Positions 18,253 through 28,921 of a stretch of DNA of 64,000 nt are shown here, piece by piece. The translations under genes were made by a program, and so were the position numbers. The stretch is from positions 62,001-126,000 of the forward strand of contig JAVYSB010000004.1 in assembly GCA_038729425.1 (NCBI GenBank), read 5' to 3'. The notes beneath the pieces were generated by a model that saw only the letters and a list, made by a program, of their open reading frames with translations, did not search any database and was not told the origin of the DNA. Source of the DNA: Thermoplasmataceae archaeon (GTDB lineage: Archaea > Thermoplasmatota > Thermoplasmata > Thermoplasmatales > Thermoplasmataceae). Each line of letters starts with the position of its first letter. Within the stretch, counting starts at the first letter, position 1.

Positions 18253-18371
18253 TCTCGTTTGAAATTAACAGTTTTCCGCACAACAATTCATGGTTCCATT
18301 TCATTGAACGCATGCAACCCCGCTGCACCCGCTCATAAAATTTTGTGCGCGTATAGCTCCCAACCGCTGGT

Positions 18372-18386
18372 ATTTTATTTTTTTTC
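18372..18386 (+). terminator. T-rich transcription stop
   Basis: attttattttttttc about 120 bases after the stop of the gene at 17671-18252. Archaeal termination often occurs at oligo-T without a stem. The interval 18253-18370 holds no convincing gene. Confidence 0.35.
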
Positions 18387-18531
18387 TATCACACTTTTAA
18401 ACAAGAAAATAGGTCTTTATACTGCTGCTGCACTATTTCTACAGCCATAAAACGGCTCTTCAGTCTTACTTTACAGGTGAAGAGCAACGTGTATATTTTC
18501 ACATTGTATTGATAATTGGGGGCGACTAGAG

Positions 18532-18627
18532 TTGGACAGAACCTTGTTGCTGTATGGAATAGCGATGGTCGTAATTGCAGTAGTGGTGGCGGTGATAGCC
18601 GGAACAGCTAGCCCGAGTCCAGTGTGA
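18532..18627 (+). CDS. 31-residue single-span membrane microprotein
   Basis: A TTG at 18532 opens a 31-codon frame: a short N-terminus with one Asp and one Arg (MDRTLLLYG), about 17 consecutive hydrophobic residues (IAMVVIAVVVAVIAG), and a short tail TASPSPV. The composition is that of a single transmembrane helix. A TATA-like tgtatatttt is near 18490-18499, and gggggcga about 8-15 bases before the TTG may be an imperfect SD. It could be a small subunit of a membrane complex, but no neighbour tells which. Confidence 0.45.
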   Translation: MDRTLLLYGIAMVVIAVVVAVIAGTASPSPV

Positions 18628-19027
18628 AGCGTGAATTTCCGGCAACAAAGCAAATAATGGAGTAATTTTTACCATTTCATTTTTTTTGAGGGCACCATGT
18701 GAGGTAGATGTACAATATTTTCCATTTATCTGCATAAATTAAGTATAAGCGGTCATTTTCATGGCCTCCTTTGGAACGAAAAGTGAAGGGTCAGGAAATA
18801 ACATTAGAAGGATTACATCAAGGCCAAATGGAAGACTTAGCGCTCATATATTCACTGCACCTTTAGTTCAATTCACCTTCTAACTCTTGCACATGTATGC
18901 TTCGACGCTTGAATGCTGTCACACGAACGCCATAATTGGTTTCATCATATACTGTTTAGCTAATGTTGTACCGGGGGGAAAATCGCTCTCCGAACGGTGC
19001 CCAGAGAAATCATATCAACGATAATAT
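18628..19027. other. Noncoding or uncertain stretch between microprotein and MscS gene
   Basis: About 400 bases without a clear gene. One candidate is a 40-codon frame from ATG 18761 to 18883 (MASFGTKSEGSGNN and on) with TATA-like aattaagtataa about 20 bases before it, as for a leaderless mRNA; its composition is not convincing. On the other strand aaggaggcc precedes ATG for a 7-codon frame only. An oligo-T run at about 18680-18688 may be a terminator. Confidence 0.4.
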
Positions 19028-20194
19028 CTAATCCTTTACTCCGGTGTCATTCTTCAATTTCAGGTACGCCTCTTCATAAGACGAATTGACTACGTGCGTC
19101 ACAACATCATATGAAGCTCCCGAGATCGTATTGAATTTCACGTTTATCGTGTTTAGGGTCGAATTTTTATTGTAAAAGTAAGAGTGAAAACTGGATATGC
19201 CAGCTTCCGTAATTCTTGTATTCAAAATTGCGTCTCCTTTGCTTATTATGTTTAGAACAGGTACGTCAACAGGAAACCCCAGGAGAATATTGCTTCCCTG
19301 CGGAGTTCTGAACTTCATTTCCCAGTAAGCCTCATCAAATGCTGTGTTGATCATGTCGACTATCCTGTTGTATTCCATTAACCTCGTAAACGTAAAGATT
19401 GATTTTATTGTATTAGAGTTGAAGGCTTTTCCAAAGAAATACAACTCTATACTTGTTACACCTAGAGCTCCTTTCCTAAGTTCCATTGCAGCAGAAGCAA
19501 TTTCAATTATACCTCTTATCTGGCTGTCAACTGGCAGGGCAATCTGAAGTGAGGCCCTGATGACGGCACCGGACCCAAGATTGGTGAACTGGGTCTGACC
19601 GAGAAGTGCAGTACTCGGCAACTCTGTAACATTCCCGTCGACGGTCATTACTTGCACAGTCAATAGTTTTATATCAACAACTTCACCAAGCACGGGGTTA
19701 TTAAACATCCAGGAGTATATTGCCAACTTGTCTTTCGGCTTCACAAGCCCTGCGGACGCAAGCAAAAGACCGGTGAGAAGGTTTGAGACAGTATTTTGGA
19801 GTGCAAATGAAAGTATCAGACCACCAACAGTACCTCCTATCAGGGCTCCTGTCAGACTTACGCCAATATATCCCAGAAATGAGGCTATAGCTCCACCGTA
19901 TACCAGAGCACGCATAATCGTGTAAAGTCCGTGATAGTTCCTTCCCTGCGAGCGATTGGTGGCCCTCTCTATCATCTTCCGTATGACGCGAAGAATTACG
20001 TAAGAAAGGGCGAATATGACAATTGCGCCAAGAGCATCTCTGAGATATCGGTCGTACCCAACAAGTACGGGAAAAGATTTTTCAAGAACCGGCAGGAGGT
20101 AAAATTGGAAAATCGCTACAATTAAAATGCCCAACAAGAAGGCTATGAAGATCTTTAGCTTTCCCGCTGTTCCTTCTCTAACTTTTTCTGCCAA
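19028..20194 (-). CDS. Mechanosensitive ion channel, MscS family
   Basis: 388 residues. The N-terminus has two or three membrane helices. The pore-lining helix is recognisable by its Gly/Ala-rich run (LTGALIGGTVGGLILSFALQ) followed by NTVSNLLTGLLL, and the beta domain that follows contains GEVVDIKLLTVQVMTVDG and ELPSTALLG, all typical of MscS. The channel opens on membrane tension to release osmolytes. The gene is monocistronic with an AT-rich upstream region. Confidence 0.92.
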   Translation of the reverse strand: MAEKVREGTAGKLKIFIAFLLGILIVAIFQFYLLPVLEKSFPVLVGYDRYLRDALGAIVIFALSYVILRVIRKMIERATNRSQGRNYHGLYTIMRALVYGGAIASFLGYIGVSLTGALIGGTVGGLILSFALQNTVSNLLTGLLLASAGLVKPKDKLAIYSWMFNNPVLGEVVDIKLLTVQVMTVDGNVTELPSTALLGQTQFTNLGSGAVIRASLQIALPVDSQIRGIIEIASAAMELRKGALGVTSIELYFFGKAFNSNTIKSIFTFTRLMEYNRIVDMINTAFDEAYWEMKFRTPQGSNILLGFPVDVPVLNIISKGDAILNTRITEAGISSFHSYFYNKNSTLNTINVKFNTISGASYDVVTHVVNSSYEEAYLKLKNDTGVKD

Positions 20195-20695
20195 TAGGGA
20201 AGTATGTTATCCTTTTTTTATAAACTTTGCGTCCGGCCATCATATACGCAGACGATGGTACATATAGAATCATTCAACAGGACTACAGCATTCCACACAT
20301 AACTTATCTGGTCATTTGATCATAAAAGTTAATGCGTAGCTACACTTCCGGCACCTTTCCATTCATACACATAAATTGCCATGAGTCAATGAGTGAATCA
20401 GTTGGTCATCGATAGAAATGGACTGGCGTGAGTTCTCACCTTCAAGGGGCTAAAGAACTTAGACCCTGTTTCCTAAGTGGCTCTACAGAATGTGTGGTTT
20501 GTGGATGATTCGGCAAATGACGGTTACAACGTGGGATTATAAGAGAATATTTACACCATGAAATTGTGGCCACAATCAAGTTACAAAGATCGACAGGGAT
20601 TGAAATGTCTGTTCTGGTGACTGGAATACATCAATTGATGCACAATGTGAATGATTCCAGTGTAAATAATATATAAACTGGAGATATTAATACCC
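20195..20695. other. Left boundary of the accessory island; tRNA-Ala 3'-end repeat and leaderless promoter
   Basis: About 500 bases without a gene. ATGGACTGGCG at 20418-20428 is identical to 23786-23796, where it covers the 3' end of tRNA-Ala, and the bases after it (gtgagttctcacc) form a short hairpin where the tRNA has its T-arm. This looks like a decayed attachment-site copy. Near the right end, ataatatataaac (20665-20677) is a TATA box about 26 bases before the ATG at 20696, as for a leaderless mRNA. Confidence 0.5.
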
Positions 20696-21515
20696 ATGTC
20701 ACAAACACAGCCTGAGCTGGTTACCGATTATGCAGAATTTGTCGATTTTAGAACTCAGGCTCAAGAAGACCACTCTGTTGAATTAAAGAATCGAAGTTGG
20801 TTATGCTCCACTAGTGTACTTTTAGTTGCTTATTTGAAGACTAAATACAAATGCGAAGTAACCAGCACTGGTCAGAGCAACGCAAAAGGATATTATGATC
20901 AAATGACACAAGATCCAATGTGGTGGAAGAAAGAAATCATTCAGATGTCGAATGCCAGAAGTTCTTACCTTCCTTTTTCAGAACTGCCCCAAGAAGAAAC
21001 AGAATTCAAGACTTTATTCGCAAAAGTAAGTAAATTGATAGAATCCCATACGCCAGTTGGCGGAGAAAATGCTTTTAAATACGTCTTGAGCGAGTTAACT
21101 GATAACATATGCCAGCATTCTAAATTTAAAAAGTCGTTTATGATGTGCCAAGCTTATAGGAAGAAAGGATACGTTGAGCTTTCGTTCATTGATGATGGCA
21201 TTTCAATACCAGGTAATTTTGAAGAGCACAGTATAGGGTTTGAAGGAGACTGGAATGCCATATCAATGGCAGTTAGTGGGCAATCTACAAAAGATAATTA
21301 TGAGAGGGGTAGGGCTCAAAAGTTCACTTCAGATATACTGTGAAGGAACTGGAGCAGAAGCGATGATAGTGTCAAGAAATGGCGTCTATTACAAAAAGTC
21401 TGAAGAAACGCAACTATATCGACTCAACGACCAGCAAAGATTTCAGGGGACGTTAATTAGCATTAGAATACCTATGAAAACTAGCAATATTGAAATTTAC
21501 AAATACACGAGCTAA
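20696..21515 (+). pseudogene. Histidine-kinase-type ATPase (HATPase), frameshifted near 21307
   Basis: Two overlapping frames together make one protein of about 273 residues. The first (20696-21343) carries the N-box SELTDNICQHS and the G1-like box FIDDGISIPGNF. The second frame continues from about 21310 with VGLKSSLQIYCEGTGAEAMIV, the G2-like glycine box and the last strands, ending ISIRIP. The junction is in gagaggggtagggctc. Loss of two bases (for example GGT-TAT-GGG becoming GGT-A-GGG) or one extra base explains it. The N-terminal 120 residues are a helical extension. A STAS-like partner follows. The start ATG is leaderless. The gene may be dead, recoded, or misassembled. Confidence 0.75.
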
Positions 21516-21580
21516 TAATAAACATCATAATGTTCATAATAAAATGCAATAGTTTTAATCGCCAGAAAAATTAACTACTT

Positions 21581-21886
21581 ATGGAAGTGAAAGTTTCAGG
21601 GTTATTAGGTATGCGGGATTTGGCATTGCGATCTTGGGCCGACGAGCTTTTCAAACTGTTAATGGCTAAGAAGGATTCTCAGTTCGTTCTTGATTTCTCG
21701 GATATAGAGTTCATGAGTAGATCTTTTGCTCATGAGTACTTAAAGGAAAAACACGTGTTTCCTAAGCCCATTATTGAGAAGAACATTGCACCGGCAGTGA
21801 AACAAATGTTTGATTTAGCTTCTCAGTTCCCGAAGAAAAAAGATGTGAAGATTGATAGGCACATCACTGTAAATAATTTACTATAG
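21581..21886 (+). CDS. STAS-like protein, DUF4325 family
   Basis: 101 residues. The core SQFVLDFSDIEFMSRSFAHEYLKEK corresponds to the strand, conserved Asp/Ser region and helix of STAS-like DUF4325 proteins, which usually neighbour a HATPase gene as here. By analogy with SpoIIAA/SpoIIAB the two could bind and regulate each other. TATA-like agttttaatc near 21550-21559 lies about 27 bases before the ATG, so it has its own leaderless promoter. Base composition is AT-richer than in the core genes around it. Its target in an archaeon without sigma factors is unknown. Confidence 0.72.
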   Translation: MEVKVSGLLGMRDLALRSWADELFKLLMAKKDSQFVLDFSDIEFMSRSFAHEYLKEKHVFPKPIIEKNIAPAVKQMFDLASQFPKKKDVKIDRHITVNNLL

Positions 21887-22006
21887 AGGATTTCTAAAAC
21901 CTTTCTTTTGTTGAAAAATTCTTACTTGATTGTTTTTCACTGACTCAGATAAATACCCTTTTTTGATTATGGACCGGGATATTAAAAAACGTTATCTTCT
22001 GGGTTA

Positions 22007-22213
22007 TCAGAAATCCTCATAACTGGTATACCCCTTAGCAACCTCCAAATTCCAGTTAAATGAGCTTGAAAGACTCTTTACATACTCGAAAGTACAAGAC
22101 AAACCTCCTCCCGTATTGATATAGACAATCCCTTCTAACCTTTATATAGCTTGCATTTCAAGAGTATCACGAGTGCTCTCGTTACCGCCTGAAAATGACG
22201 CCCATCCTTTCAT
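22007..22213 (-). pseudogene. Fragment of a PAPS-reductase-like PP-loop protein with internal stop
   Basis: Reading from ATG 22213 gives GWASFSGGNESTRDTLEMQAI, which matches the PP-loop SGGKDST of PAPS reductase/adenosine nucleotide hydrolases. After an in-frame TAA the same frame continues RLEGIVYINTGGG, then TFEYVKSLSSSFNWNLEV, ending with TGA at 22007. This is the second strand and helix of the same fold. The frame is preserved across the stop, as expected from a single nonsense change (AAA to TAA). Only about the first 70 residues of the domain remain, so this is a truncated, inactive remnant. Confidence 0.6.
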
Positions 22214-22660
22214 ATTAAATAAATCAAATTCAGAGGTAATTTTATGAGCAAATCATGAAGATGTATCAAATTTTCCTTGATGCAGGGAAATTTGTATTGG
22301 AATACTTACATATTTTTTTTTAACAATGCGCATTATAGAGTTATGCATAATGATAGATGCGTACTTTGCAATTATAGGATAACGAACCAGGACAAACGCC
22401 ATTTCCAGTGTCAAACTCGCCGTCCTACATTTGGAACGGAAACCAGATTGTGAGCCAGATCGTTCAAACTGCTATGGGTCCTTTTGGCCACTTGCCGATA
22501 CGTGCGTTACGTCGAGTATTTTTTTCTCTAACTATGACCGGATATGGCAATAACCCTATAGAACAGGTTTCCGGCATAGGCAAGTTGGATAAATAGGCTC
22601 TTTTTCTCATTTTTTATTTCCTTGAATAGTTATAGGTAATATTGGAACTTAGCCGAAGAT
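22214..22660. other. AT-rich gap of the island with two doubtful short frames
   Basis: Two plus-strand frames overlap here. One begins at ATG 22343 and encodes 36 residues with CVLC near the start and a later His and Cys (HFQC), like a tiny zinc finger. The other, about 22408-22596, encodes 62 residues that resemble no family I know. Neither has a clear SD, and they exclude each other over part of their length. An oligo-T run at about 22312-22322 could be a terminator. I do not support either as a gene. Confidence 0.35.
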
Positions 22661-22867
22661 ATGAACAACAGAGGCGAATCCCTCTTACTGCCTGATGACC
22701 TTGCGGTCCAGAAGGCAAGGAAGCTGGGATACAACAAGGGATGGAACGACAGGAAGTTCCAGGACATGAACATTATAGAAGATGCGCTAAGAGAAAGCAG
22801 AGACTTCCAGGAGTTCTCGAGACTGCTCAGGGAAAAGATAGCGGAACTGGACAGGAACGTGGGATAG
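22661..22867 (+). CDS. Small acidic helical protein, first of a paralogous pair
   Basis: 68 codons starting at ATG 22661. After a short N-terminus (NNRGESLLLPDD) the protein is helical and highly charged: KARKLGYNKGWNDRKF, then EDALRESRDFQEFSRLLREK. Its stop TAG overlaps the GTG start of the next gene by one base, so translation is coupled. The two proteins share the same plan, a Gly/Tyr/Asp segment, then a helix with ALRES or ALEET, then ExxxxLxE, and appear to be old duplicates. Function unknown; it lies inside the tRNA-linked island. Confidence 0.62.
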   Translation: MNNRGESLLLPDDLAVQKARKLGYNKGWNDRKFQDMNIIEDALRESRDFQEFSRLLREKIAELDRNVG

Positions 22868-23076
22868 TGGCAAAGAGGAATCCATTCACAAAGGAATACT
22901 ATACAGGCAGGAAGGACCAATATGACCTTGATTATGCAATCTTCCGAAAGGCATTGGAGGAGACGCAATCCTGGGAGGAACTGATTAAGTTCCTTGAAGA
23001 GAGGTTCGATTACGTCATATCAAAGATTGCAGACCAGAATGCCATGGAACTTATGGAAGAGTTGGAACTAATCTGA
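22867..23076 (+). CDS. Small acidic helical protein, second of a paralogous pair
   Basis: 69 codons from GTG 22867 (MAKRNPFTKEYYTGRKDQYD). A longer frame opens at 22741 but lies over the first gene and has non-coding composition, so GTG is preferred. The helical part DYAIFRKALEETQSWEELIKF parallels residues 35-55 of the first protein. It overlaps the last 9 bases of the convergent winged-helix pseudogene. Toxin-antitoxin or anti-restriction roles are conceivable for such tiny island proteins, but nothing in the sequence shows this. Confidence 0.62.
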   Translation: MAKRNPFTKEYYTGRKDQYDLDYAIFRKALEETQSWEELIKFLEERFDYVISKIADQNAMELMEELELI

Positions 23077-23350
23077 TAAGATCAGTTCTGCCATTTCATT
23101 TATCTTTTCTGAGAATTTTTTACCCTTATCTGTCAGAGATACCAGGTTCCGAGCAGGATATGATGCATTATCTATTCTGGCATTCACCAATCTTAATCCT
23201 CTGGCCTTTTCTATGCTGGAATAGAGCTGGTGCACAGGTATATCGGTTTCAGCTAGTATTGAGGTGAGAGGCTTTTTTCCCTTCCCTGGAAAGAAATACA
23301 ATCAGCCTGAGGAATCCTGACTGCTTCTCTATGACCTTAATTGGATCCAC
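23068..23350 (-). pseudogene. Winged-helix regulator, frameshifted in an A6 run
   Basis: From GTG 23350 the frame reads MDPIKVIEKQSGFLRLIVFLSREGKK; then the sequence ggg-aaaaaa-gcc changes frame, and the rest (PLTSILAETDIPVHQLYSSIE, later YPARNLVSLTDKGKKFSEKI) is in the next frame down to 23068. Joined, this is a normal winged helix of about 94 residues like MarR or ArsR type regulators. One extra A in the run (six instead of five, near 23275) accounts for the shift. It may be dead, or rescued by slippage on the A run, or a sequencing error. Confidence 0.62.
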
Positions 23351-23437
23351 CATTCATCATGATCGGTGAGTGCTGATAGTTTTCCATTATGCAACCAGAA
23401 ACCATTTAAGCTGAAAATGACCGCGTAAACGGCAATA

Positions 23438-23805
23438 ATGAAATCACTGTTCAGATACTATGGCGGAAGTTCAACCAGCTGAGGGATATACTTGCAATCA
23501 TGGAGGATCACCTGGATGCATTCGATGTTATCGTGGACGTATTCGGCGGTTCAGGGAAGGTTCTTCTTAACGTTCTCGATGATTGGAAAAAGGGGAAGAT
23601 CTACAATGACCTGGATGACAACCTCTACATTACATTCAAGGTTCTCCAGGATACAAAGAAAAGGTTGGCGTTAACCAGAAAGCTCAGGCTGGCATTTGCA
23701 CATGAAAAGGCATTCATTGAGATGCGGATGAAGAAAGTCAAATTTTTTCTGAGGTTCAAATCCGTTGAACCATGCAGAATTGCCGATGGACTGGCGGGGA
23801 TTTGA
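23438..23805 (+). pseudogene. DNA adenine methylase (D12 class), frameshifted and truncated
   Basis: From ATG 23438 the frame gives MKSLFRYYGG. One missing base in ggcgg-aag then shifts the reading to KFNQLRDILAIMEDHLDAFD, followed by VDVFGGSGKVLLNV and KIYNDLDDNLYITFKVLQD. These match the N-terminal third of Dam-type N6-adenine methyltransferases: the PGGK SAM-binding motif (here YGGK once repaired) and FGGSG. The catalytic DPPY region is absent, because the homology ends just before tRNA-Ala at 23787. The last residues of the open frame run into the tRNA gene. A clear remnant at the edge of the island. Confidence 0.7.
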
Positions 23806-23858
23806 ACCCCGGGCCTCTTCCATGCCAAGGAAGCGATCTACCTCTGATCTACCAGCCC
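23787..23858 (-). tRNA. tRNA-Ala (anticodon GGC)
   Basis: 72 bases fold as a normal tRNA: acceptor GGGCTGG/CCAGTCC with the G3-U70 pair that marks tRNA-Ala, D-stem GATC/GATC, anticodon stem CTTCC/GGAAG with loop TTGGCAT (anticodon GGC), five-base variable loop, T-stem CGGGG/CCCCG with loop TTCAAAT, and discriminator A. No CCA is encoded. TATA-like ttttaaag lies about 35-40 bases upstream (near 23889-23896). Its 3' end faces the decayed island and is repeated in part at 20418, so it is probably the integration site. Confidence 0.96.
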
Positions 23859-24142
23859 GAATGAATTAAGGACGGATTGGGAGGATGCTTTAAAATTTTG
23901 TCTTTTTGTTCTCATTTCCCCTGCAAAGTAGTAATTTGTTAGATAGTTTGTGTACTATCCATCGGTGGTGTTTCTACAATTACTAAATGATTAAGTGGAT
24001 CGTTAAAAATTCAGATACGGCCCATAAATTATGCATTACGATGAAAGACATATCGGGACGTTCCCGTTTCGCAGTGAGGACATACATTAAATCCTTATAT
24101 CGTGCAAAAGACTTATTTATAGCGATCGGGTGAAGTCTTATC

Positions 24143-25642
24143 TTGGATGAGACAAAGATAACGAGCCAGAACAGTGAAGACTCAAGGCAAATTATAGAGG
24201 ATCATTACGATATAGTCCCGCAGTTTGTATATGTAGATATTATTAGAGAGGCTGCCGGAGAGCTTCTGTATTCTATAAACGAACCCGAAGTATCGACTGA
24301 ACTTAAACAGTTCATAGATAGAATGTATAGCAATATGAGGAACGTGGTTCTGGGAAAATCCAGGGCAGGAAATGGGAAAAATAAAGGCACGGAAGCCTTC
24401 GAAGACTACCTGAAACTCTATGAACCACTTATGGACGGTGAGACAAAAAAGAGGGTCTTGTATTATTTTAAAAGAGACAACGACGGGTATGGCGCTATCG
24501 ACCCCATCGTAATGGACGGCAACATAGAAGATATATCGTGTGACGGTGTAAATATCCCTATATTCGTGTACCACAGAAAGTATGGTACAATGAGGACTAA
24601 CGTTATCTTCCGGGATGCAGAGTCCCTAAACTCTTTTATTGTAAAGTTATCCAGCCTCTGCGGGCGAAGTATCTCTATTAACGACCCGATTCTAGACGGC
24701 ACATCGCCGGATGGGCACAGGATACAGGCCATTTACGGTTCAGAAATCTCGCCAAGAGGATCCGCATTCACCTTCAGGCTCTTCAGAAAGAATCCATTTA
24801 CCATAGCAGATCTTATCAGAAGTGGAACTATAAGCCCGGAAATGGCTGTTTACTTCTGGTATATGGTGGAGAGTAGGTCCTCTGGAATCGCTGTAGGGCC
24901 ACCAGCTGTAGGAAAAACTTCTCTCCTTAATGCTATATTGGCATTCGTTCCCGAGAATTCCAAAGTATTCAGTATTGAAGAAACACGCGAACTCAACTTT
25001 ATGCATGATAACTGGATTGCAACTGTAGTGAGGGAGGGACAGGTTGAAACTGGATTTGGCATGGAGAATCTGCCTAAGATCGACACTTTCGACTTGGTAA
25101 GGGCAGCTATGCGCCAGAGGCCAACATATTTAGTCGTGGGAGAGGTTAGGGGAGACGAAACTTTCTCGCTCTTTCAGGCAATGTCAACTGGCCATACAGT
25201 TTATTCAACTCTACATGCAGATTCAATGGAAACGCTTATAAATAGGCTGGAAAGCGAACCGATAAATGTTCCAAGAATACTCACTGTGTACTTGAATACA
25301 GTTATAATCGTTAAGTTTGTTAGAATCAACAACAAATTGGTAAGAAGAGTCACGGAAATTGACGAAATAGAAGGAACGGAAGAAGTTGGAAATGGCATTG
25401 TTTACAATAAGATTTTTGAATATGATCCGGTTGCCAATAAGCATCGCCTAAACGGGCAGAGTAAAATATTTGAAAAGTTCAAAGTTATGAGTCGTTTATC
25501 CGACAATGAATTCAGCATGGATTTTAGGGCAAGGTTAAATTTCCTGACAGATCTATCAACATCAGAACATAACGATCTATCCGGCATCATTGATAAGATT
25601 CGCAAGTTTAATCTTAGGCAAAGTGGACAGTGGGGGGCTTGA
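24143..25642 (+). CDS. Type IV pilus/Tad-like secretion ATPase (copy 1)
   Basis: 499 residues, GspE/VirB11/TadA superfamily. Walker A is VGPPAVGKTSLL (about 251-262), Walker B region is YLVVGEVRGDE (about 330), and the His-box STGHTVYSTLHAD follows. The N-terminal 200 residues form the two-part N domain (NIEDISCDGVNIPIFVYHRKYG). It provides energy for assembly of pilin-like fibres or secretion. The start is TTG 24143; acttatttata at 24110-24120 serves as TATA, which places the transcript start near the codon. It is first in a compact four-gene module, and its paralogue of equal length is at 27422. Confidence 0.93.
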   Translation: MDETKITSQNSEDSRQIIEDHYDIVPQFVYVDIIREAAGELLYSINEPEVSTELKQFIDRMYSNMRNVVLGKSRAGNGKNKGTEAFEDYLKLYEPLMDGETKKRVLYYFKRDNDGYGAIDPIVMDGNIEDISCDGVNIPIFVYHRKYGTMRTNVIFRDAESLNSFIVKLSSLCGRSISINDPILDGTSPDGHRIQAIYGSEISPRGSAFTFRLFRKNPFTIADLIRSGTISPEMAVYFWYMVESRSSGIAVGPPAVGKTSLLNAILAFVPENSKVFSIEETRELNFMHDNWIATVVREGQVETGFGMENLPKIDTFDLVRAAMRQRPTYLVVGEVRGDETFSLFQAMSTGHTVYSTLHADSMETLINRLESEPINVPRILTVYLNTVIIVKFVRINNKLVRRVTEIDEIEGTEEVGNGIVYNKIFEYDPVANKHRLNGQSKIFEKFKVMSRLSDNEFSMDFRARLNFLTDLSTSEHNDLSGIIDKIRKFNLRQSGQWGA

Positions 25643-25649
25643 TACGGTA

Positions 25650-26600
25650 ATGCCAAATTCTGACGATGTTTCTGCCGTTAAGCTCGATGTTCAAGACAAA
25701 AAAAAGGCCTCAGGGCATTCTGTCTTCAAAGAGGGATTGCCATCTCCAACGCTTTTATTTTCGTTAAGGGTATTTGAAAAGATTTACAATAATAACTCCC
25801 TCTCCAACAAGCTCGAAGATGATCTAAAAAGGTCAAAAATCCCCCTGACAGCGGTTCAGTATCTATCTCTAATGTCACTTTATTCACTTTTCTTTCTCAT
25901 AGCGGATATTGCAGTGTCTATCTCAGTCAGCCAGATTTTGAAATTCAATACAATTTACATAATCGCCGTGGCTTTCCTGTCATTCATCGCATGGGGGTTA
26001 TACATTTTTTATTTTCCATCAAGTGTGACTTCAGCACGCAGAAAGGACATAGATGCAAAGCTCCCCATAGCAATAAGCTATATTTCTGCAATGGCATCTG
26101 CTGACATTCCGATTGACAGAATTTTCTCAGATCTCGGAAAGATTGAGCTTTATGGAGAAATTTCAAGAGAAGCTAAGTCAATAAGTGTGTTGACCGAAAT
26201 ATTTGGAATGGATATTCTCGGAGCCATAAAAGAAGCCTCTAAGTTTAGTCCGTCTCGGAGATTCGCAGAGTTTTTATCTGGTATATATACAACTGCAAAT
26301 TCGGGGGGGAACCTTCGAGAATACCTGCTGGGTAAAGCAAAACAGTACAATTCAGAACTGACAATCGGAATAAGGCGTAATGTTGAGTCAATAGGTGTTC
26401 TGGCTGAGAGCTATATCACGGTTGGAGTAGCGTTTCCACTCATGATGATGGTAATCGTTGGCGTGATTGCGGTACTGTCACCTTCACCATCCCTGAACAT
26501 AATTCTCTTCCTCGCGATCATAGTAGGTATAATGATACCGGTCATCACTGGTTTGTTCTCAATATTCATACGAAGCACAATGAAGGAGGTGGAATTCTGA
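25650..26600 (+). CDS. Type II secretion/Tad-like membrane platform protein (copy 1)
   Basis: About 316 residues from ATG 25650; an upstream frame start at 25590 would overlap the ATPase gene by 53 bases and is less likely. Two membrane helices around residues 75-135 are followed by the cytoplasmic GspF/TadC-type helical domain (KLPIAISYISAMASADIPIDRIFSDL, cut here to show the region; SGGNLREYLLGKAK later) and two C-terminal membrane helices. It forms the inner-membrane platform with the next gene product. Its TGA overlaps the CTG start of the next gene. Confidence 0.86.
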   Translation: MPNSDDVSAVKLDVQDKKKASGHSVFKEGLPSPTLLFSLRVFEKIYNNNSLSNKLEDDLKRSKIPLTAVQYLSLMSLYSLFFLIADIAVSISVSQILKFNTIYIIAVAFLSFIAWGLYIFYFPSSVTSARRKDIDAKLPIAISYISAMASADIPIDRIFSDLGKIELYGEISREAKSISVLTEIFGMDILGAIKEASKFSPSRRFAEFLSGIYTTANSGGNLREYLLGKAKQYNSELTIGIRRNVESIGVLAESYITVGVAFPLMMMVIVGVIAVLSPSPSLNIILFLAIIVGIMIPVITGLFSIFIRSTMKEVEF

Positions 26601-27421
26601 TCAACCCTCAAAGGAATCTTGTTTTTTCCTTTACTGTTGCGGCGGTTATCATACTCGTCTCAATAGGAACGTACCTGAACATACCATTCCTCAGTTTCAG
26701 ATCATATCCTATCTTCGCTGCAACCCTGATCGTGATTTCAGCATTAACCCCATACGGTTATTATGAGTACAAGGAAAAGCTTGGCATGCTTGAAATGGAA
26801 AGACGGTTGCCTGATCTTTTGAGAGATATCGCGGAATACGCAAATTTCGGCCTCCCTGTTTCGCAATCAATAGTGAAAGCTGGAGGCAACGATTATGGGA
26901 GAATCAGTGAAATCGTCAGGAACATGGCTAAAAAAATCTCTTCGGGTGTTCCTGTTGAGGAAGCAATAGAATCTGAGGAGAAAAATCTTAAGTCCAAGGC
27001 TATCAAAAGGGCCCTTATAGTACTGAGAAAGGCAACCCAGTCTGGAAATAATATTTCGGAGGTTCTTCGCCTTGTATCTGAATTCTCCGGAGAGATGGAG
27101 GTTATTCGCGAGGGGCGGATATCCGAGATGAAAAATTTTGTACTTGTGATGTACGTGGCATTTGCAGTGTTTTTTTTTGTTGTCATTATCATCGACATCG
27201 AATTTCTGGGAAAAATATCACACGGAAGCTTTACTACACTCGGAATTGCAAGCGTTGCATTAATCAAAATAATATTTAGTATCGGTATCCTTGTACAGGG
27301 AGGAAGTACAGGCTTCATGTCTGGCATCCTTAGGGATGGAAGCATCGGGACAGGATCCTTCCTCGCTGGAGTAACACTTCTCTTATCGGTCGTAATTCTA
27401 GCTATTTTCGGGGTGATCTGA
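26597..27421 (+). CDS. Type II secretion/Tad-like membrane platform protein (copy 2), apparently CTG start
   Basis: About 274 residues. From CTG 26597 the frame encodes MINPQRNLVFSFTVAAVII and a second hydrophobic segment ending near residue 52, the two N-terminal helices expected for this family. The first ATG/GTG/TTG in frame is GTG 26732, which would remove them. The SD ggaggtgg (26585-26592) ends 4 bases before the CTG, and CTGA overlaps the stop of the previous gene, like the usual ATGA coupling. The rest shows the GspF/TadC domain (LPDLLRDIAEYANFGLPVS, QSGNNISEVLRLV) and C-terminal helices. ATPase 2 follows directly. Confidence 0.86.
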   Translation: MINPQRNLVFSFTVAAVIILVSIGTYLNIPFLSFRSYPIFAATLIVISALTPYGYYEYKEKLGMLEMERRLPDLLRDIAEYANFGLPVSQSIVKAGGNDYGRISEIVRNMAKKISSGVPVEEAIESEEKNLKSKAIKRALIVLRKATQSGNNISEVLRLVSEFSGEMEVIREGRISEMKNFVLVMYVAFAVFFFVVIIIDIEFLGKISHGSFTTLGIASVALIKIIFSIGILVQGGSTGFMSGILRDGSIGTGSFLAGVTLLLSVVILAIFGVI

Positions 27422-28921
27422 ATGGCTGATGGCCATCGTCTGCTTGTTAAGGAGAGGCGAGAGGGTGACCTGTCGTTTCGCGAAATCCTTCCCGGCCTAA
27501 TTTATTCCCATATATACAGAAATGCAGATGATAGACGGATTTCATACGAGATATTCGAGCCCCAGATGAGTCCCGTAGCAGAAGAGGAGTATAGGAAGCG
27601 CATAAGTAAAATCATTGAGAGCGGACTTAGTAACGGCACATCGTCCAAGAGGTGGGACTATCTTTTTTCAAGGGAATCTAAACATCCCGCGTCTAACATT
27701 CTGGGGGAATCAGACTTAGATGTGGTAGAATATTATGTTAACAGAGATATTTCGAGATACGGAAAAATAACAGGTCTTCTATTGGACCCCGATGTAGAGG
27801 ACATATCGTGTGAAGGGGCGATTAAACCAGTGTTTGTTTTTATGAAAGCTTATGGTTTTATTCCCACAAATGTGAGTTATGCCACAGAGAATGAACTTAA
27901 CTTTTTTATTCGCAAGATTGTCCAGGATTCTGGCAAGAATATATCTGTGGCCAGCCCCATCGTGGATAGCACCCTTCCTGATGGGTCGAGAATACAGGCA
28001 TCTATAGGTGGAGATGTTACGCCAACAGGGCCAGCTTTTTCAATCAGAAAATTCCGGAAAGAGCCACTCACGCCGCTTGACCTTATCGGCCTTGGGACTG
28101 CCCCTTCAGAAGTTTTCGCCTATCTGTGGCTTGCGGTAGAATATGGTGCCAATATAATAATAACGGGAGGAACAGCTTCTGGCAAGACTGTCATGCTGAA
28201 CTCAATTCTACTATTTATCCCGCAGAACCAGAAAATTATCACCATTGAGGACACCAGGGAGTTGAGGTTACCGCACGACAACTGGCTTTCTCTTATTTCC
28301 AGAGAAGGGACAGGTCGCGAAACGCGGGCCAATGGCAAGAGATTGGGACAGATAGATATGTTTGATCTCCTCACGGCATCCCTGCGGCACAGACCAAACT
28401 ATATAGTAATAGGAGAAGTGAGAGGGCGTGAGGCATTTACCATATTCCAAGCCATGTCTACTGGGAGGTATGGACTTGCCACTTTTCACGCTGAAGATAT
28501 AGACACCCTGATCCATAGGCTTGAATCTGAGCCAATCAATATCCCAAGAAATCTTATAGGCTCCCTGGACGCTGTCATAGTGATGGGCAATTTTGTATAT
28601 AAGGGAGAAACCAGGAGGAGAGTCAAGTCACTGCTTGAAGTAATGCCTCCAGAGAGTCATAGGGGAGAGTTGACGGTGAATAAAGTCTATTCCTTGAATC
28701 ATGATGATACCTTCAGCTCTTCCGGGTTCAGTTACCTTCTTCAGAAGATTGGAAACAGGTATGGCATACCGGCATCTGTCATGGAGAAGGATGTACAGAT
28801 CAGAAAAGGTATTCTGGAATCAATGATCCGAAAGGGATCGACTAACTATGATGAATTTACAGGTATGATTTTCTCATTCTACCACGACAGGGATAAAGTT
28901 ATAGAAATGTATGGCGTTTGA
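27422..28921 (+). CDS. Type IV pilus/Tad-like secretion ATPase (copy 2)
   Basis: 499 residues, same length and order of motifs as copy 1: N domain with DVEDISCEGAIKPVFVFMK, Walker A ITGGTASGKTVML (about 245-257), Walker B region YIVIGEVRGRE, and STGRYGLATFHAED. The start is ATG 27422, preceded by gggtgatc, almost a perfect SD. Last gene of the module, with its stop touching that of the convergent antiporter gene at 28921/28922. Having two ATPases around two platform proteins suggests either extension/retraction motors or two assembled machines; which one does what cannot be told. Confidence 0.93.
   Translation: MADGHRLLVKERREGDLSFREILPGLIYSHIYRNADDRRISYEIFEPQMSPVAEEEYRKRISKIIESGLSNGTSSKRWDYLFSRESKHPASNILGESDLDVVEYYVNRDISRYGKITGLLLDPDVEDISCEGAIKPVFVFMKAYGFIPTNVSYATENELNFFIRKIVQDSGKNISVASPIVDSTLPDGSRIQASIGGDVTPTGPAFSIRKFRKEPLTPLDLIGLGTAPSEVFAYLWLAVEYGANIIITGGTASGKTVMLNSILLFIPQNQKIITIEDTRELRLPHDNWLSLISREGTGRETRANGKRLGQIDMFDLLTASLRHRPNYIVIGEVRGREAFTIFQAMSTGRYGLATFHAEDIDTLIHRLESEPINIPRNLIGSLDAVIVMGNFVYKGETRRRVKSLLEVMPPESHRGELTVNKVYSLNHDDTFSSSGFSYLLQKIGNRYGIPASVMEKDVQIRKGILESMIRKGSTNYDEFTGMIFSFYHDRDKVIEMYGV

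Follow-up and report, generated by a model that had tools for sequence, protein, structure and literature searches.

The window analysed here, a 64-kb stretch of a 1.45-Mb archaeal genome whose lineage is close to Thermoplasmatales MAGs, encodes a GHKL ATPase followed by a STAS-like (DUF4325) protein, and we favor, with moderate confidence, the interpretation that this locus belongs to an archaeal, sigma-free branch of the CapK/VapK-CapS/VapS switch that is mobile and often lacks an adjacent effector. The kinase of the window copy carries a frameshift and is probably inactive, whereas intact relatives are found in other archaea and in viruses. To our knowledge, archaea have no sigma factors. 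The CapK/VapK-S switch has so far been described in bacteria only, through the CapK/CapS and VapKSC systems (EMBO J 2026; PMC13373217). CapK is activated by ssDNA and phosphorylates CapS at Ser54, whereupon the CapS dimer comes apart and immune operons are derepressed; VapS inhibits the PIN toxin VapC within a system that guards E. coli against a phage (PMC13373217). In a text search of that paper, archaea came up nowhere but in a cited reference's title. The features of the locus are listed in the table below.

Table. Features of the kinase-STAS locus and its surroundings (positions in the window).
Feature	Position	Strand	Basis
Variable hotspot holding the pair, with conserved flanks, abutting tRNA-Ala(GGC)	18253..23786	.	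Synteny with same-genus G044
Kinase TATA element (AATATATAAA)	20667..20677	+	Constant 18-nt spacing in 3/4 orthologues, surroundings diverged
Kinase, frame 1 part: probable N-terminal STAS-like domain and GHKL domain, up to the lesion	20696..21311	+	
Kinase frameshift lesion, second glycine box (RGxGL)	21302..21317	+	Reading frames; intact orthologues G074, G070 and G115
Kinase remainder, GHKL C-terminal part	21312..21515	+	Other frame; 99% match to joined-query residues 203-273 in the genome search
STAS TATA-like element, in the kinase-STAS gap	21551..21560	+	CAATrGTTTTAATC conserved in orthologues
STAS-like (DUF4325) partner, 101 aa, intact	21581..21886	+	DUF4325 match, invariant S48, AF2 model, VapS match
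tRNA-Ala(GGC), hotspot boundary	23787..23858	-	ARAGORN; 98.7% identity to G044 across 77 bp

The first-pass annotation had described a GHKL-type ATPase with an N-box and glycine boxes, followed by a STAS-like protein. Both families are present and adjacent, but the annotation overlooked that the kinase gene is not intact. The gene begins at 20696, and its first frame, which holds the N-box ELTDNICQHS and the first glycine box DDGISIPG, stops at 21343 (ORF 20696-21343). From the second glycine box onward, the rest of the protein is read in another frame, open up to 21515 (21312-21515). Relative to its closest orthologue, G074, the window kinase is 2 bases short at about 21311/21312, inside the RGxGL box, so that the second glycine box carries the lesion. 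The intact orthologues G074, G070 and G115, which are 60-69% identical, stay in one frame across this motif. Judged from these alignments, the window kinase was probably inactivated by a two-base deletion, and the pair as found in the window is probably not functional because its kinase is frameshifted. We also considered programmed frameshifting, which is unlikely, as close relatives have the same motif in a single frame.

Profile searches, which the first-pass annotation had proposed as a check, returned both families, each below its curated cut-off, so that the lack of similarity named there as a refutation is not observed. The HATPase_c profile (PF02518, Pfam) matches the window kinase at E 8e-5 when the frames are joined and at 0.0046 when they are not; the joined protein scores 23.4 bits against a cut-off of 26.4, and CapK itself scores 14.7. 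For the STAS protein, DUF4325 (PF14213, Pfam) gives E 9e-4 and 19.4 bits against a cut-off of 23, which is exceeded by the relatives psiM100 ORFC (29.4) and L049 (23.7). Within the GHKL domain lie E133, N137 and H141 of the N-box and D166 and G168 of the first glycine box, and the ATP-site residues E, N, D, G and G are each invariant in all 37 rows of an alignment of intact copies. The N-terminal domain spans approximately residues 1-90 and includes W35 and Y66. Its AF2 model has a STAS-like order of secondary structure and weakly matches the anti-sigma antagonist TM1442 (E 0.15), which suggests that this domain is probably STAS-like; a profile-profile comparison fails to recover a STAS-like domain there. 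In the partner protein, Ser48-Phe49-Ala50 lies at the start of helix 2, and the Ser48 column is serine in 42 of 42 archaeal and viral rows. The protein ends in a short conserved tail and has no HTH. Across orthologues, non-synonymous change is far below synonymous change in both genes, a ratio that mostly reflects the time before the lesion.

Structure prediction agrees with the partner-switch fold and logic that the first-pass annotation had proposed. The AF2 model of the window STAS protein (pLDDT 90.0) finds SpoIIAA as its best PDB matches, and that of the intact G074 kinase (pLDDT 86.6) has SpoIIAB among its best high-probability matches. These matches reach a probability of 1.00 with E values of only about 1e-3 to 1e-2, none below 1e-3, and whole-chain fold scores are modest; by structure, the pair comes nearest to SpoIIAB/SpoIIAA. 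The SpoIIAB/SpoIIAA and RsbW/RsbV pairs share with the window family their folds, the E-x3-N-x3-H N-box and a serine at the start of helix 2. In contrast to those pairs, the window family has an extra N-terminal domain and no sigma factor.

Closer relatives emerge from sequence profiles. The STAS profile matches Escherichia VapS (9z7o) at E 3e-4 (hhalign 3e-6), and the kinase profile matches the GHKL domain of CapK at E 1.7e-3 (hhalign 8e-6). The STAS profile does not find CapS itself, and the tie to CapS therefore rests on one aligned motif. Using the published CapK and CapS sequences, taken from E. coli TW05614, we found that the CapS phosphosite Ser54 aligns with window Ser48; in a gapless alignment, the phosphoserine of VapS (S48) lies one position earlier, so the window serine is placed as in CapS and one later than in VapS. 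Catalytic Asn218 of CapK corresponds to N137, which is conserved in 37/37 rows. The ssDNA-stacking residue W68 of CapK (F54 of VapK) aligns with W35 within a stretch of low identity, where W, F or Y occupies 28 of 37 rows; the nearby kinase lysines K237 and K239 are poorly conserved. The window pair thus resembles CapK/CapS in its kinase-STAS gene order and in its equivalents of Ser54 and Asn218, with a possible equivalent of Trp68, but it differs in having a kinase without an HTH, a STAS protein without a wHTH and no downstream immune operon. Neither window protein gave an HTH match, and both are too short for one, whereas CapS itself shows one. With VapKSC, the family shares an HTH-free GHKL kinase (approximately 270 aa, its N-terminal domain probably STAS-like), a STAS partner with a short C-terminal region and the sequence match to VapS; it differs in its archaeal and viral hosts, and in the window the kinase is broken and no VapC lies beside the pair. 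The window pair is therefore neither CapKS proper, as it lacks a wHTH and a downstream operon, nor VapKSC proper, as no VapC is nearby.

On the observed homology, conserved residues, fold class, genomic context and lesion, we built the following model of the switch. A cue would activate the intact kinase; by analogy with CapK, this cue may be ssDNA arising from damage or virus infection, which would be bound between the N-terminal and GHKL domains. The activated kinase would then phosphorylate the invariant STAS serine (Ser48 here), and phosphorylation would make the STAS protein let go of its target, so that a toxin or a promoter becomes free, with no sigma factor taking part. In the window copy, inactivation of the kinase would leave the STAS partner unphosphorylated. 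The first-pass annotation had argued that the pair, if functional, must control something other than a sigma factor, possibly element maintenance or defense, and the close published relatives bear out the sigma-free part: CapK/CapS acts on a promoter and VapK/VapS on a toxin, and both are linked to defense (PMC13373217).

Each gene had also been credited with its own TATA element and a leaderless start, and comparison among orthologues upholds this assignment. Upstream of the kinase, 3/4 orthologues (the window, G074 and G070) retain GTAAATAATATATAAA, each time with 18 nt to the start, where the G070 spacing assumes an in-frame GTG start that matches the G074 N-terminus, as read by eye. For the STAS gene, 3/4 orthologues carry the motif CAATrGTTTTAATC 21 nt ahead of the start, and the sequence flanking either element has diverged. 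Both elements are conserved, and spacings of 18 and 21 nt fit archaeal leaderless starts.

The pair sits in an integration hotspot. Gene order is common to the window and the same-genus genome G044 upstream of 18252 and again from tRNA-Ala(GGC) at 23787 onward, and the content between these flanks differs. In the window it comprises an MscS-like channel gene, the kinase-STAS pair and a D12 methyltransferase fragment; in G044 there are IS-like remnants and, abutting the same tRNA, an integrase fragment (PF00589, 1e-25; L133:6991-7515). ORF density is 50% in the hotspot and 89-90% in its flanks. No attL/attR repeat of the tRNA-Ala longer than 12 bases was found. We listed ORFs of at least 28 aa in 20150-24200, and Pfam searches of the larger ones for an adjacent effector returned only the D12-class adenine DNA methyltransferase fragment, which adjoins the tRNA at 23500-23805 (PF02086, 3e-5). 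Neither a toxin-like gene nor a VapC-like PIN gene was recognized in the hotspot, and within it no operon lies 3' of the STAS gene on its strand. A search of the genome found only two PIN genes, both otherwise accounted for: one encodes a 595-aa protein resembling a housekeeping KH-PIN, and the other, a VapC, has an antitoxin-like gene of its own in front of it. Neither protein of the pair was matched by the PADLOC models.

Relatives of the kinase are scattered. Within the order, 10 of 117 genomes have it, and so do 24 of 390 genomes sampled from the phylum; the three other genomes of the genus all lack it. A search with the alignment as query yielded 21 loci from named genomes (Thermoplasmata, Methanobacteriaceae, Woesearchaeota and a few bacteria) and 3 loci on viral contigs. 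Of 26 loci, 25 have the STAS gene next to the kinase gene and the remaining one lies at a contig end; in many loci the two genes overlap by a few bases. Plasmid searches with the kinase found one Halobaculum plasmid, while those with the STAS protein and with VapS gave no match. In the kinase tree, which has moderate support, psiM100 groups with Thermoplasmatales and not with Methanobrevibacter, and Thermoplasmata appear in several places. The cassette is accessory and mobile, as indicated by the tRNA-Ala hotspot here and by archaeal viruses elsewhere. Neighboring genes vary among relatives, with a PIN gene in L060 (7.7e-19). A small membrane protein without a Pfam match is encoded at L064:8778-9296 by a gene that overlaps the STAS stop, and it is a possible effector.

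Broken kinase genes also stand beside STAS genes in G104, a single-contig genome, and in G058. In G104, a C5 cytosine DNA methyltransferase gene lies directly upstream of the broken kinase gene (L018:9476-10318). Three further genomes have STAS genes without a detected kinase (L114 in G088, L115 in G093 and L116 in G091), and in G088 a HEPN gene lies upstream of the STAS gene on the same strand. That the kinase is lost more often than its partner may be due to chance, because the kinase gene is 2.7 times longer than the STAS gene.

The pair is also carried by viruses, archaeal head-tailed viruses among them. In the Methanothermobacter prophage psiM100, it corresponds to ORFB and ORFC on the inserted fragment IFa; MTH315/MTH316 are homologues. 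The ORFB kinase is 38.5% identical to the window kinase over 95% of its length, and ORFC, the STAS partner, lies directly downstream, as in the window. The psiM100 kinase is intact, sits on a viral inserted fragment and has ORFD behind the pair, whereas the window kinase is broken and has no recognized effector beside it. ORFD (L044:7132-8610) begins 11 bases after ORFC. Its N-terminus weakly matches PIN (E 0.01 when taken alone, 0.15 for the full-length protein), and acidic residues, read by eye, fall where a PIN domain would have them (VDTN, KELH, DYVDIS and ITEDQ); its middle is acetyltransferase-like (phrog_13728, 1.6e-11), and a weak EVE-like part is also present. ORFD is a candidate viral effector, and none of the fetched loci holds a relative of it. 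Further viral occurrences are on an IMG/VR contig, some of whose genes resemble terminase and portal genes (L067), in a region flanked by integrase-like and terminase-like genes (L121 in G326) and in the Bacteroides phage BF1-TP2. PHROG 3364 matches the kinase and PHROG 20761 the STAS partner, and both are phage families without an assigned function whose matches serve as labels only.

We weighed other explanations for the family and for the window copy. A classical switch of the SpoIIAB/RsbW type, in which a target protein sequestered by the kinase is released through the STAS protein, whose serine is reset by a PP2C phosphatase, would account for the shared folds, for the positions of the N-box and phosphoserine and for SpoIIAB and SpoIIAA being among the best structure matches. 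We nevertheless regard it as highly improbable, given the lack of sigma factors in archaea and given that beside the pairs examined we recognized no PP2C phosphatase, no sigma-factor target and no other target gene. The close published relatives, moreover, work through the STAS protein and not through sequestration by the kinase (PMC13373217). Another explanation is a VapKSC-like toxin-antitoxin system, in which the toxin is encoded elsewhere or is unrecognized and the STAS protein is an antitoxin, kept because its loss would be toxic. The VapS-like architecture with its short conserved tail, the PIN genes beside some relatives (L060, and psiM100 ORFD with its weak match) and the persistence of an intact STAS gene without an intact kinase in the window, G088, G091 and G093 are consistent with this idea. 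However, the genome search turned up no PIN genes besides the KH-PIN-like one and the VapC with its own antitoxin-like gene, the hotspot yielded no recognizable toxin-like gene, and the greater length of the kinase gene may explain its commoner loss by chance; we therefore consider a toxin-antitoxin role clearly unlikely.

Two further explanations concern the frameshift. If it were an assembly error, the pair would be intact and active, and in keeping with this, the lesion stands alone, the sequence downstream of it is open to a natural stop, and conservation covers both the promoters and the STAS gene. However, sequencing errors do not usually take the form of two missing bases outside a long homopolymer, and the long neighboring genes are intact; together with the broken kinases in G104 and G058, these observations make an assembly error rather doubtful. 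Alternatively, both genes could be dead remnants left by an integrated element and serve no function today, as the low ORF density of the hotspot, the methyltransferase fragment and the broken kinase might suggest. Against this stand the intact STAS gene with its intact promoter and the low non-synonymous change in both genes, although the latter mostly predates the lesion, and we judge a dead relic somewhat unlikely.

On its own, the window locus is ordinary: with a kinase that is probably inactive, this copy is of little interest by itself, and it is the family that is informative. Members from archaea and viruses that have the same catalytic residues and the same phospho-acceptor would carry the switch into a domain of life without sigma factors, would suggest a function for PHROG 3364 and PHROG 20761, and would make archaeal signaling from DNA damage to defense testable in a known virus, psiM100. 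Beyond this, we tentatively entertain the idea, doubtful at present, that archaea and head-tailed viruses have a stand-alone, sigma-free kinase-STAS switch, with exchangeable effectors or none, that reads DNA damage and decides between prophage maintenance, induction and host shutdown.

Separately, a Tad/type IV pilus-like operon that is conserved in the genus occupies 24143-28921 in the window; it encodes two secretion ATPases as well as two membrane proteins. In Methanobrevibacter (L059, L062, L063 and L066), gene order around the pair is conserved, with a TctA-like permease on one side and a CpaF/TadC operon on the other. We considered a link between the pair and Tad/type IV pilus operons and judged the association to be a coincidence, as it is absent from closer relatives. 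In the same four Methanobrevibacter loci, the N-terminal domain of the kinase is shortened.
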